Below, piece after piece: positions 3,474 through 25,402 of a stretch of 53,338 nt of DNA; position 1 is the first letter of the stretch, and each line of letters opens with the position of its first letter. Source of the DNA: Sphingobacteriaceae bacterium (GTDB lineage: Bacteria > Bacteroidota > Bacteroidia > Sphingobacteriales > Sphingobacteriaceae); assembly GCA_947460875.1 (NCBI GenBank), contig CANHGR010000013.1:1-53338 (forward strand). Direction: 5' to 3'. The translations under genes were made by a program, and so were the position numbers. The notes beneath the pieces were generated by a model that had not been told where the DNA came from, made no database searches, and saw only the letters and a program-made list of their open reading frames with translations.

Positions 3474-4469
3474 TTTTAATAGCTAATATAAGGCTGCATT
3501 AACAAATTTCAGAATATAGTGCAGATATATTAAGTGCTAGTTCGTTTATTCTTATAAAAATTGTAATCCCAAATTTTGCGTCCTTACTTCAACATCTCTA
3601 GTAATAAAATAAGACACTTTTTGACGGTAATACGACACTAATTGCTCTGACAACAAACTTTGTGCGCATCCGTCAAAGAAAATTATATAGCACTCAAAGT
3701 CAATTAGATTACATTATAAATAGAATTTTAATCTAATTGATTAATTTTTTAAGGCCTTTAGTCCCCAATATTGAAACAAAAAATAGACTGTTTCACTAAG
3801 TCATCGACAGGTCGGCAATATTTATCGAGTGCTGATGGAATATCACTTGTGTATTAATCTTTAAATACAAGTATTAAAACCGAAAATATCTACTGGGCCG
3901 AAAAGAATCTATGAAAAGCATTACTAATGATGGCTAAGGTATTAGCTTGATGTCAAATAAATGTTGCTTTTAATACTCATATCCCGAAACTGAAAATCCT
4001 GTTTTGTCCCTCGAACATATTTTGAAGCTAGTAGGCAATTTTCTATGTGACTAAATTCGAGGAAATATAAGGCTTACTTGATTAGTGCAAAAGCATTATT
4101 CAAGATACCGAAGTGGGCAATTGAACACGCGATACAGGTTTAATTTATACTGCTTAAAACGTTTGCACGTATGAAACCGCGACATGGTACATTGAGAATA
4201 TTTGCTAGAGTTTTTGGGTTAACATATATCGCCACAATTCATCAACAAACTTTTAACAAACAAAAGGATAGTAATTTAATACTAACGGTAATCTCCGAAC
4301 GACTTTTAATGAATGCGCAATGAGCGAAGGAATACAAGCATTAGTATGGAATTAGTTGACACTACTAACTTTTTGATAGTTAAGTATTTTAATGCTAAAA
4401 TTAGATACCAGCCAGTTATAACTTAGACGAAAAATGTCAAATTTAAACACTAAGCCTAAAAGTTGTGAA
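3474..4469. other. Long AT-rich stretch without a recognisable gene
   Basis: About 1 kb with stops in all frames, and no coding stretch that I recognise. An imperfect LacI-type half-palindrome, AAACGTTTGCA (4157-4167), is the only motif I noticed. The region sits between decayed regulators and probably holds genes degraded beyond recognition. Confidence 0.4.
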
Positions 4470-4721
4470 GAATATATTTCAATTTATACTTGTCGATGAT
4501 GACGCGATTAATAAGTTGCTAACTAAACTGATTATCAGTTAGGATTGCTCGTATGCAAGCATTATTGCGTTTGGAGATATTTACATAAATGTTCTGATTT
4601 GCTTAAGGTCTGCACCAGAAAATTGATTCGCTCTCTGGATAACAATATGCCAAGCTTGACCAGTTCGGACTTTATTCAGAAGATTGATTACCGTGTCATC
4701 GTTCTGCAAAAGCAACTTTGA
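4470..4721 (+). pseudogene. Decayed response-regulator receiver domain
   Basis: The plus strand reads FILVDDDAINKLLTKLIIS, then a stop. That is the first strand and the acidic pocket of a CheY-like receiver (normally ILLVDDDxxxxxL). About 100 bp later another frame reads SLDNNMPSLTSSDFIQKID and stops with TGA at 4719-4721. This matches the phospho-acceptor region, normally LLDINMPxMNGWxFLxxx, although the Gly after the Asn is lost. Frameshifts and stops separate the two parts, so no functional protein is possible. This is the third two-component relic in the left 5 kb. Confidence 0.65.
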
Positions 4722-4881
4722 ATTAATCTATTTTTTTCATCAGTAAATCATGGGGTTATTGAAAATGCGAGAGTGAGTCGCGATAGTTTAGCCTCTATCG
4801 AAAAATCATCGAGTGGTGAGTTTTTAGATGCCGTTATCTAAACTCACTAAATAATTGCTTAACTTCAATAAAAATATATTT

Positions 4882-21975: not shown

Positions 21976-22638
21976 TTAATCCAATCGCTCTGCTTTCAGC
22001 GTATTAATATCCTTTATTAATTGCTCTGCCTCCAACTGCAAGGTGCCATTATAAATCCCCCGTATTCTACTTGAACCATCTACAAGGAGAAAGTGCTCGG
22101 TGTGCAAAAACTGGGTGCTATCTTTAGTAAATCCCAAGCTTTCCTCCGCAAAGTATGATCTTCTGGCTAGATTATAGATCTCTGATTTATTACCCGTTAA
22201 GAAGTACCAATTAGACTTTTTAATACCTTTTGATTCTTTATATAATTTAAGCCTTTCGGGCGTATCTATCCAAGGTGTCACACTGTATGATAGAATAACA
22301 ACAGAAGAATCGTTTTGAAAAGTTTTGGCTACACGCGCCATTTCTTCGGTCATTGCCGGACAAATATTATCACAGCTAGTAAAGATAAAATTTGCCACAT
22401 GAATTTTGCCTTCAATATTTTTTTGGGTGATGGTTTCTAAGTTCTGACTAACAAATGAGAAAGAAGAGATTATGTGAGTAACCTTTTCTGTTACTTCTTC
22501 TTTACTATCTAAGAACAGGGGATTAAACTCGGCTGTGTTGTAAAATGGCAGATTTAACGGCTTTTTCCCTGAGTTGCAAGAAATAAGAAATACACAAAGA
22601 CCAAATAGTTTAATTCTTAAAAATACTGTCTGCCACAT
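21976..22638 (-). CDS. SCO1/SenC-family copper chaperone lipoprotein
   Basis: From the ATG at 22638 this gives 220 residues with a lipoprotein signal (CVFLISCNSGKK, lipid Cys about residue 21) and a thioredoxin-like SCO domain. The copper-binding Cys pair is C89 and C93 in TSCDNICP, and the third ligand is His179 in FLHTEHFLLVD. SCO proteins deliver copper to cytochrome oxidase or act as thiol reductants in the periplasm. A longer frame starts at a TTG (22659), but the ATG gives the better signal. It overlaps the 3' end of the MORN lipoprotein gene by 29 bp and is the last gene of a four-gene minus-strand cluster with two YHYH proteins. Confidence 0.9.
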   Translation of the reverse strand: MWQTVFLRIKLFGLCVFLISCNSGKKPLNLPFYNTAEFNPLFLDSKEEVTEKVTHIISSFSFVSQNLETITQKNIEGKIHVANFIFTSCDNICPAMTEEMARVAKTFQNDSSVVILSYSVTPWIDTPERLKLYKESKGIKKSNWYFLTGNKSEIYNLARRSYFAEESLGFTKDSTQFLHTEHFLLVDGSSRIRGIYNGTLQLEAEQLIKDINTLKAERLD

Positions 22639-23197
22639 TCTCGCAATTTTTAGTGCCAAGCAGTCCGTACCGCCGTCCGCCCGTCATGATATAATTAGCC
22701 TTAATTTTTCCGTCATCGTAAAACTGCTTTTGGCTTCCTTCCTCATATCCCATTCTATAATTCATAGCCTTTATTAAAAGTCCCCGATCGTTCCACTCGC
22801 GGCAGCTTCCGTTGTATTCGCCGTCAGCAAATGAATATTGGAGCTTCAAAGTTCCGTTGGGCCACCAAGCCTTTAAAGACCCGACTTTTTTGCCACTTCG
22901 AAATTCGCGTGTTTCCATCACTTTCCCATCTGGAAAAAATTTCTTCCAGATTCCGTGCTCTTTTCCTTCATAAAACCCAATAATTTCTGCTGTGTCCTTT
23001 TGATTAGCACTTAACGAAAAAATTTTGCCTGTAAAGATGCTACTTCCTTTCATTGCAAGGCCATTTTTCAGTTCAATGTTGGCCTCGGTTGAACTGAAGG
23101 CCATCATTTTCACCTCCGGCTCAGATTCAGTGCAGGCTTGAAAGCATAATAAAAAAATACTAACGTGAAACAGTGCCTGCTGTGCCATAAAATCCAT
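22610..23197 (-). CDS. MORN-repeat lipoprotein (YwqK-like)
   Basis: This 195-residue precursor has a lipoprotein-like N-terminus (VSIFLLCFQACTES). From residue ~75 it contains four to five MORN_2-type repeats, seen in YEGKEHGIWKKFFPDGK, RSGKKVGSLKAWWPNG, ADGEYNGSCREWNDRG and YEEGSQKQFYDDGK. Databases often label such proteins antitoxin YwqK family, but nothing here indicates a toxin-antitoxin pair; the repeats more likely form a surface or periplasmic beta-scaffold. The ATG at 23197 lies inside the preceding YHYH gene (38-bp overlap) and its 3' end overlaps the SCO1-like gene by 29 bp. This strongly suggests translational coupling and a joint role. Confidence 0.82.
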   Translation of the reverse strand: MDFMAQQALFHVSIFLLCFQACTESEPEVKMMAFSSTEANIELKNGLAMKGSSIFTGKIFSLSANQKDTAEIIGFYEGKEHGIWKKFFPDGKVMETREFRSGKKVGSLKAWWPNGTLKLQYSFADGEYNGSCREWNDRGLLIKAMNYRMGYEEGSQKQFYDDGKIKANYIMTGGRRYGLLGTKNCENVADSIFKN

Positions 23198-23927
23198 TTC
23201 CGTTGATGTAAGGATCTGTAGAGGTTATATGATAGTGATAGATACCGTTAGGATATTCCGTGGTCGCGGTTATATGTCCGTGATACGCATCAAGTGCAGC
23301 ATTCGACACTGTTGTTCCATTCTCTGTTGGTCCATATACAGGAAACCCATCAAGCAAAAATCCCAAAAGTGCAGATTTGTTCGCTTTTACAGTAGTTAGA
23401 TAGAGCGGCTCAACATGATAATGATATTCACTAGTTGGAGAAGGATGACCCCAATATTGATCAAATGAAACAACTTCGTTTGTTAGTGGCTGATTGGGAC
23501 CAGCATATTGATTAAAAAAGGGTACTCCGTTAAGTGACACACCAATCGGACCTAGCGGAGTTGCAGAATGACTCGAAGCAACCTGGGGATTAACAGGAAT
23601 CTTAAAGGTATAATTTTGAGTACCTATAGAATTTGGATTTTTCTTAAACGACGCTCCTCCAAAGGTAGTTCCAGAAAACGATTCGTATAAGCTGTTCGAG
23701 GTGGCGTAGTAGGCGCTTCCATGGTCTGGCGCACCTGTTGTTTTAATGTAGATATATGTCCCATTTGAAGTAATGCTACTTGCACCATATATCTTTTTAT
23801 ATATATCCGGAACTGTGACGGTTGAGGGCAAACTAGTACTAGGAGGTGTTACAGACTCGGATTTTTTACAGGAAGCAAAGGCAATTGAAATTGCAATAAT
23901 TGTTGTAAATATTTTAGCACTTTTCAT
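23160..23927 (-). CDS. YHYH-domain lipoprotein (copy 1)
   Basis: The 255-residue precursor has a lipobox (ISIAFASCKKSES). The mature part is a YHYH domain named for its His/Tyr motifs: SEYHYHVEPLY and GIYHYHIT, together with VSLNGVPFFNQYAG, LLGFLLDGFPVYGP and DAYHGHI. The many His are conserved and could bind metal, but the family has no established function that I know. It is a close paralogue of the next gene upstream (23991-24743), apparently a tandem duplication. It overlaps the MORN lipoprotein gene by 38 bp. The 11-mer GACCGACAATT upstream (23948-23958) also occurs before the other copy. Confidence 0.88.
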   Translation of the reverse strand: MKSAKIFTTIIAISIAFASCKKSESVTPPSTSLPSTVTVPDIYKKIYGASSITSNGTYIYIKTTGAPDHGSAYYATSNSLYESFSGTTFGGASFKKNPNSIGTQNYTFKIPVNPQVASSHSATPLGPIGVSLNGVPFFNQYAGPNQPLTNEVVSFDQYWGHPSPTSEYHYHVEPLYLTTVKANKSALLGFLLDGFPVYGPTENGTTVSNAALDAYHGHITATTEYPNGIYHYHITSTDPYINGNGFYGTAGTVSR

Positions 23928-23990
23928 TTTTGTTTGTTTTATTAGAGGACCGACAATTTAAAAAAAAAACTTCTATAGCTTACAATTTTT

Positions 23991-24743
23991 TCAACGGGAT
24001 ACGGTGCCTGGAGTACCATAATAGCCACTTCCGTTAATATAAGGGTCGGCAGATGTTATGTGGTAATGATAAATCCCATCAGGATAATCCACGGTAATTA
24101 ATGTATGCCCGTGAAATGCATCAAGATTTGAATTTGAGACTGTTTTGCCATTTTCTTCCGGTCCATATACCGGGAAACCATCCAGAAGAAACCCAATTAA
24201 GGCAGATTTACTTGCTTTTACAGTAGTCAAATAAAGCGGTTCAACGTGATAGTGATAGTCATTTGTAGGAGCAGGATGACCCCACCATTGATCAAAACTA
24301 CTAATTTCATGGGTAAGTGGCTGTCCACCCCCTGCATATTGGTTAAAAAATGGCACACCATTTAAAGAAACGCCTATCGGGCCTAAATTTGTTGCCCGAT
24401 GAATCGGAGCAACTGTAGGTAAAAGCGGTATCTTAAAAGTAAAACTTTGTTCAGATATAAATCCAGGATTCTTACCGAAAGCAAAGCCTCCAAATGTCTT
24501 GCCAGAAAAATGTTCATACTTTTCACTGGCTACAGGAAAATATGCACTTGAATGATCAGGGACACCCTTTGAGCGAATGTAGACATAGCTTCCATCTGAG
24601 GATACACTAGTTGCACCATATATTTTCTTGTAAACGTCTGGAACATCCGCCGTTAAAGGGGTATCGGTAGATTTTGAAATACTTTTAAACGCAAATACTA
24701 AGGCAGCGGCAGCCAACGCTGCAATTAGGATGTTCTTTTTCAT
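23991..24743 (-). CDS. YHYH-domain exported protein (copy 2)
   Basis: This 250-residue paralogue of the downstream YHYH gene shares long blocks of identity (GPIGVSLNGVPFFNQYAG, YHYHVEPLYLTTVKASKSAL, LLDGFPVYGPEENG, GIYHYHITSADPYINGSGYY). Unlike copy 1 it has no lipobox Cys: the N-terminus MKKNILIAALAAAALVFAF is a Sec signal or signal anchor, so the product may be soluble in the periplasm or anchored in the inner membrane. The gap to copy 1 is 63 bp. The difference in anchoring suggests the two copies serve the same reaction at different sites. Function is unknown; neighbours point to copper. Confidence 0.87.
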   Translation of the reverse strand: MKKNILIAALAAAALVFAFKSISKSTDTPLTADVPDVYKKIYGATSVSSDGSYVYIRSKGVPDHSSAYFPVASEKYEHFSGKTFGGFAFGKNPGFISEQSFTFKIPLLPTVAPIHRATNLGPIGVSLNGVPFFNQYAGGGQPLTHEISSFDQWWGHPAPTNDYHYHVEPLYLTTVKASKSALIGFLLDGFPVYGPEENGKTVSNSNLDAFHGHTLITVDYPDGIYHYHITSADPYINGSGYYGTPGTVSR

Positions 24744-25402
24744 TTATTTATTTAATCATTAAGACGACGAGCGAAAAGAATTCCTTCGGTAAAATACAAA
24801 GGAACTAGCTGACCGACAATTCAACTAGTAAATAAAAGGTTGCCGAGATTAAGCCTTTATCTGAAACTCAATGAAAAAAACTCTGGCAATGAGACTATTT
24901 CTACTTTTTATGCGTCTTATATGATATTAAATCTTTACACGATAAAAAAAAGACCAAGTTTAATGCTTTCGCTTCAGTAGCGCCAGAAGTTAGTTGCTTA
25001 GACACGTAGAATTTATACTTTTAACAAATAATTTACTTGAAATCAATCGCCTCAATTGGAAAATTATCTAGAGAATATTTATAACAGTATGAATACTATC
25101 TGCCCAATTGCAGATTCAGCTATGAAACATAAAATTTGGACGTTGAATTAGTTGAATCGTACGGTTCAACGGCCCTACCGACGTGCCTTCAGAGCTACTT
25201 AAAAATTGAGAAAAGAAAACATTCAACAATATTAGCTTTCGAAAAAAACTTTTTGCTCCTGACTTAGTATTTGCCTGTACTGAATTTGAACAAAAACGGC
25301 CGGCTACTAATTAAAATATATGGTTGCTAAGAAATTAACAATACCCACTCAAAAAAACAAAATTATGATTAAACTCAGGTCTCTTAGTTATTGTAAACTT
25401 GA
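24744..25402. other. Intergenic region without a gene
   Basis: About 660 bp between the YHYH cluster and pfkB, with stops in every frame. The only motif noticed is GACCGACAATT (24811-24821) within an imperfect CTAG-ended palindrome, shared with the upstream region of YHYH copy 1. No terminator for pfkB was recognised. Confidence 0.45.

Follow-up and report, generated by a model that had tools for sequence, protein, structure and literature searches.

Proteins with the YHYH domain (PF14240) are distributed among Bacteroidota, Alphaproteobacteria, cyanophages, giant viruses and diatoms; no demonstrated function or solved structure was found for this family, and the only mention of PF14240 encountered in the open-access literature occurs in a diatom survey. 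The presence of two YHYH genes beside the gene of an SCO1-like protein, in a stretch of 53,338 nucleotides from a Sphingobacteriaceae bacterium (GenBank assembly GCA_947460875.1, contig CANHGR010000013.1), raises the question of what these proteins do and whether they handle copper. The whole stretch, hereafter the window, corresponds to contig C13 of a genome of 2.21 Mb that is 99% complete. The reading favored here, with a probability of about 0.55, is that the YHYH proteins are envelope metal proteins, the metal being probably copper, served by an SCO protein of their own.

The YHYH-MORN-SCO gene unit

Both YHYH proteins encoded in the window (83.5 and 85.1 bits, cut-off 25), the MORN protein (41.5 bits against MORN_2, cut-off 29.6) and the SCO protein (83.8 bits against SCO1-SenC, cut-off 22.8) score well above the thresholds of their respective Pfam families (Table 1). 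The YHYH-2 and MORN genes overlap by 38 bp, or by 29 bp if the second possible start of the MORN gene is used, and the MORN and SCO genes overlap by 29 bp; open reading frames and Pfam matches are thus in agreement with the original prediction of an overlapping YHYH-YHYH-MORN-SCO cluster. The different membrane anchoring claimed for the two YHYH proteins is borne out by their signal segments, and the Cys pair and the His expected of a copper chaperone are all present in the SCO protein, the CxxxCP motif as CDNICP and the ligand His in HTEH. A comparable tandem, with a first copy devoid of a lipobox and a second copy possessing one, occurs in another bacterial family (locus L268, 2691-5576), and in neither genome are the two copies mutual nearest rows in the tree.

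Table 1. Coordinates of the genes, domain repeats and promoter-like motif in the window.
Feature	Position	Strand	Remarks
YHYH-1	23991-24743	-	PF14240; hydrophobic signal segment, no lipobox Cys
YHYH-2	23160-23927	-	PF14240; lipobox-type Cys (FASC), probable lipoprotein
MORN_2-repeat protein	22610-23197	-	PF07661; probable lipoprotein; start 23197 or ATG 23188
SCO1/SenC lipoprotein	21976-22638 (ATG)	-	PF02630; listed ORF has alternative start TTG 22659
Repeat A of YHYH-1	24234-24395	-	residues 117-170; D151, H156, H164, H166
Repeat B of YHYH-1	24048-24215	-	residues 177-232; D208, H213, H226, H228
Two-block motif CGAAGG-N16-CGTCTTA	24760-24788	-	16 bp upstream of the YHYH-1 ATG

The conservation of this arrangement was followed in two sets of loci, some of which (e.g., that of genome G190) are common to both. 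A scan of genome contigs with a YHYH profile, followed by clustering of the neighboring open reading frames, yielded the 80 nearest loci which, together with the window, make a set of 81 where SCO adjoins in 78 and MORN in 77, in a nearly constant YHYH-MORN-SCO order and with genes that mostly overlap or abut. Since this set is biased to close kin, 296 genomes drawn evenly across the Bacteroidota were used too. YHYH is present in 34 of them, and the loci of the compact YHYH type possess an adjoining SCO gene in 16 of 17 cases and an adjoining MORN gene in 15 of 17, the sole compact locus without SCO being that of genome G178, where MORN is present. With some three SCO genes per genome of 4-5 Mb, the chance of an accidental adjacency of SCO to YHYH is estimated at about 1/100. 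Because almost every related locus repeats this gene order, an accidental grouping of the genes is excluded. Other neighbors considered as core parts of the unit, namely sulfatase, CotH, LytS/LytTR, FeoB-like and TonB/SusD genes, were discarded because they vary between clades. A second MORN-SCO pair, with no compact YHYH gene directly in front, occurs in locus L071 (about 4120-4803).

SCO proteins and other copper-related neighbors of YHYH

Like the SCO1/SenC proteins of cytochrome oxidase operons, the window SCO combines the Pfam match, the CxxxC and His residues and a lipobox anchor, but it belongs to a separate clade and is encoded with YHYH and MORN rather than with oxidase genes. A tree of 94 SCO rows was computed by maximum likelihood; its fine branching is rough, as the bootstrap had not fully settled. 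All 61 rows linked to YHYH group in a single clade (support 100/97), joined by just one further protein, which comes from G178, the one genome with a YHYH-MORN locus but no SCO beside it. In G178 this SCO gene stands alone among unrelated genes. Strict patterns for both CxxxC and His are matched by 73 of the 78 YHYH-linked SCO proteins. In the genome of the window itself, COX1 on contig C8 has another SCO gene beside it, and contig C2 carries a third one, next to a small cytochrome c; the window SCO is not encoded with a cytochrome oxidase. These data bear on the original prediction in its copper-relay form, according to which the operon buffers or relays periplasmic copper and YHYH passes it via SCO to, e.g., cytochrome oxidase. 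Such a relay would draw on the same neighborhood data and on the duplicated His clusters described below, but the cytochrome oxidase operon possesses its own SCO, each YHYH protein offers only two clusters, and YHYH is absent from most of the genomes that need oxidase assembly (present in 34/296), so that a relay appears quite improbable.

Depending on the subfamily, YHYH proteins keep different company. The long subfamily, mostly made of multi-domain secreted proteins, has no accompanying SCO in the 296-genome sample; its neighbors comprise MbnP (PF20243, with E values as low as 4e-42) and di-heme proteins of the CCP_MauG type that resemble MbnH. In seven genomes (G212, G204, G220, G045, G012, G027 and G113), MbnP and YHYH are no more than about 2.5 kb apart. 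MbnP and MbnH are known as a pair tied to copper handling (PMC3621798, PMC9426467). This copper-binding protein and its di-heme partner adjoin the long YHYH genes, in some cases with the same set of sigma factor, anti-sigma and sensor genes upstream, but lie outside the operon of the window. The genome of the window carries on contig C19 (L260, 4557-6367) an MbnP gene that has no YHYH next to it; the gene after it encodes 347 aa and resembles MbnH. In a third YHYH type, of about 320 aa, the gene is followed by that of a DUF6702-like protein, whose match is below the Pfam cut-off. The same genome apparently has a third YHYH gene split over the contig ends C11 (L261, 1-452) and C14 (start of L201/L003), with the promoter-like motif in front and a DUF6702-like protein after it on C14.

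The neighborhood statistics therefore associate YHYH with metal genes elsewhere, with SCO in 16 of 17 compact loci and with MbnP/MbnH in a second subfamily. The copper or metal part of the original prediction is supported by association, through the SCO clade and MbnP/MbnH, and the proposed role in storage or delivery stays a conjecture.

Duplicated histidine motifs in the YHYH domain

A structural model built from an alignment of 91 YHYH sequences reached a pLDDT of 93.9 and a pTM of 0.91, and replaced an earlier, poor model from 10 sequences (pLDDT 55.6). Neither Foldseek nor VIA-align found a related solved structure in the PDB for this model, the YHYH sequence profile found no relative there, and the confident named matches in a viral library were other YHYH proteins. 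In a profile-profile comparison, the two halves of the domain matched each other (E=2.2e-8, 95% probability). Four control segment pairs gave nothing in the same comparison. The domain has thus arisen by internal duplication, and both of its halves follow the pattern IG..[N/D]G.P....[F/L]D-x4-GH...YHYH.

Both window proteins contain the YHYH motif twice, along with the conserved His3 and Asp residues. According to the YHYH-1 numbering, D151, H156, H164 and H166 of the first half, and D208, are near-invariant among the 91 sequences, a few phage copies excepted. The second set, made of H213, H226 and H228 in the second half, occurs in all 52 compact sequences as well as in each of the eight that belong to the 320-aa type. 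In the long type and in most phage copies, residues of the R/A/F type replace it; across the alignment it is essentially all-or-none. In the phage copies L174 and L175, H226 and H228 are kept, but H213 is missing and the first His set is lost. In the viral contigs L174, L175 and L177, the Asp residues equivalent to D188 and D208 are kept where the first His triad is lost. Considering the sequence together with the secondary structure, in which the HxH pairs lie on strands, the pattern fits duplicated His clusters. Since conservation of the YHYH core extends well beyond the histidines to other residues, and since only two His clusters occur, the sequences favor a metal-dependent envelope protein that is more likely an enzyme or a redox/transfer protein than a storage protein.

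The nature of the metal has to be weighed against the viral members of the family. For the YHYH of phage tails, a His3-Asp zinc site and a metal-dependent hydrolase activity have been predicted (PMC7824862). These proteins share with those of the window the same domain above the gathering score and the same invariant His3 and Asp, but in phage and long bacterial YHYH the second His triad is mostly absent and SCO and MORN partners are missing. By extension, YHYH would use zinc to hydrolyze polymers of the envelope or outside the cell, with SCO as a thiol-redox partner instead of a copper donor. This proposal gains from the published prediction, from the location of phage YHYH within baseplate or tail proteins, from the conserved non-His residues of the core and from a sulfatase-family gene adjoining YHYH in several loci, but it is at odds with the copper-handling neighbors of two YHYH subfamilies and leaves the dedicated SCO clade unexplained by zinc; it is regarded as rather unlikely for the window proteins. 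Copper is nevertheless not to be assumed for the whole family, because no SCO partner was found for the phage and alphaproteobacterial YHYH. On alphaproteobacterial plasmids, YHYH has PEBP proteins, a di-heme oxidoreductase and an oxidase operon as neighbors, the PEBP-family genes adjoining YHYH in loci L339, L340 and L345.

A promoter-like motif shared with ECF sigma genes

The upstream regions of YHYH genes contain a two-block consensus, CGAAGG-N16-CGT[C/A]TAA, and the copy in front of YHYH-1 (Table 1) is the only exact motif match in the 2.21 Mb of its own genome. Five sites of this genome carry one mismatch: one (C2:162648) stands at the start of an operon (locus L259) encoding an ECF sigma factor, a short anti-sigma factor and a CnrX-like periplasmic sensor, another (C11:424) precedes the beginning of the third YHYH gene by 28 bp, and the remaining three are inside unrelated open reading frames. 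Two mismatches represent an uninformative level, because a reversed control pattern then gives more matches than the motif itself. As a scan with a motif matrix also caught the coding-sequence alignment of one clade, a simpler count over 13 positions was used instead, a motif being counted when at least 11 of 13 were matched. It occurs upstream of 21/100 compact YHYH genes, 11/32 YHYH genes of the long and 320-aa types, 8/34 ECF sigma genes and 10/25 anti-sigma genes, against 6/1346 other open reading frames, one of the six being an unlabelled anti-sigma-like gene. Among the compact loci, only about one in four shows it. The enrichment corresponds to Fisher p values of 1e-20 to 1e-10, which are inflated by the kinship of the loci. 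With a spacing of 16, 50 upstream regions match; none of the other spacings between 10 and 23 gives more than seven. The motif also occurs between the ECF sigma and anti-sigma genes in L046, L064, L237, L271 and other loci, which suggests a separate feedback promoter for anti-sigma factor and sensor. Another motif, TTGTCGGTC, noticed by eye upstream of both window YHYH genes (24811-24819 and 23948-23956, minus strand; two matches, 0.21 expected), was rejected as a shared signal, since the comparison of other loci did not find it ahead of their YHYH genes.

About 20 of the 80 close relatives have genes for an ECF factor, an anti-sigma-like protein and a CnrX-like protein right next to YHYH. Locus L040 of Spirosoma panaciterrae DSM 21099 combines ECF-type genes, the motif and the operon. 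In 11 compact loci a LytS/LytTR pair replaces the ECF set, and the motif is found in none of them. Two of the CnrX-like sensors resemble PF13801 (Metal_resist) only at scores below its cut-off, that of L072 with E=0.015 and that of L220 with E=4e-6 and 27.4 bits against 29.2, and a third gave no match to PF13801. The sensor family is so widespread (134 of 296 genomes, many devoid of YHYH) that its mere presence says nothing, and its genome-wide co-occurrence with YHYH, at a loose threshold, has no specificity, so that only adjacency and the motif were used as evidence. The set resembles CnrYXH in grouping an ECF sigma factor, a short membrane-spanning anti-sigma-like protein and a periplasmic Metal_resist/Spy-like protein in one operon, but differs in that YHYH genes are apparently controlled rather than an efflux pump, and in a sensor match that is below the Pfam cut-off. 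A sigma factor of the stress type apparently activates the YHYH operon.

Proteins of the SCO family can act as redox proteins, and envelope stress can be a signal for ECF systems that have Spy-like partners. Both properties would suit an envelope redox-stress unit, with SCO as a thiol-disulfide protein and YHYH histidines that are structural and hold no functional metal. However, the essentially all-or-none second His triad, the near-invariant first one and the MbnP/MbnH partners make this very improbable.

In the favored reading of an envelope metal protein, probably a copper protein, with its own SCO, metal stress, presumably the signal, would be read by the membrane-anchored CnrX-like protein, which, to judge from the gene content, would free the ECF sigma factor from its short anti-sigma factor. 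The sigma factor would probably recognize CGAAGG-N16-CGTCTAA and transcribe its own operon, the YHYH-YHYH-MORN-SCO operon and the third YHYH gene located elsewhere in the genome. The products would be exported, mostly as lipoproteins, and the dedicated SCO paralogue would load a metal, most likely copper, into YHYH, a duplicated domain in which one His3/Asp set is universal and a second, homologous His3 set occurs in the SCO-linked type and a few more. A scaffolding role of the MORN protein is a guess.

In the open-access literature searched, no paper joining YHYH with SCO1 and no description of a YHYH operon or regulon was found, so that known protein families are apparently assembled here in an undescribed operon and regulon. 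New here are the internal duplication of YHYH, the motif shared by YHYH and ECF/anti-sigma operons, and a fold without a PDB match. A more ambitious proposal, advanced tentatively, sees in these proteins an unrecognized twin-site copper family, with a fold absent from the PDB, a dedicated SCO clade and a dedicated ECF regulon with a readable promoter. The SCO clade, the MbnP partner, the duplicated His motif and the readable promoter turn an "unknown function" into directly testable questions, namely which metal YHYH contains, which of the His clusters is important and what signal activates the regulon, and a widespread mystery family gains a testable link to copper.
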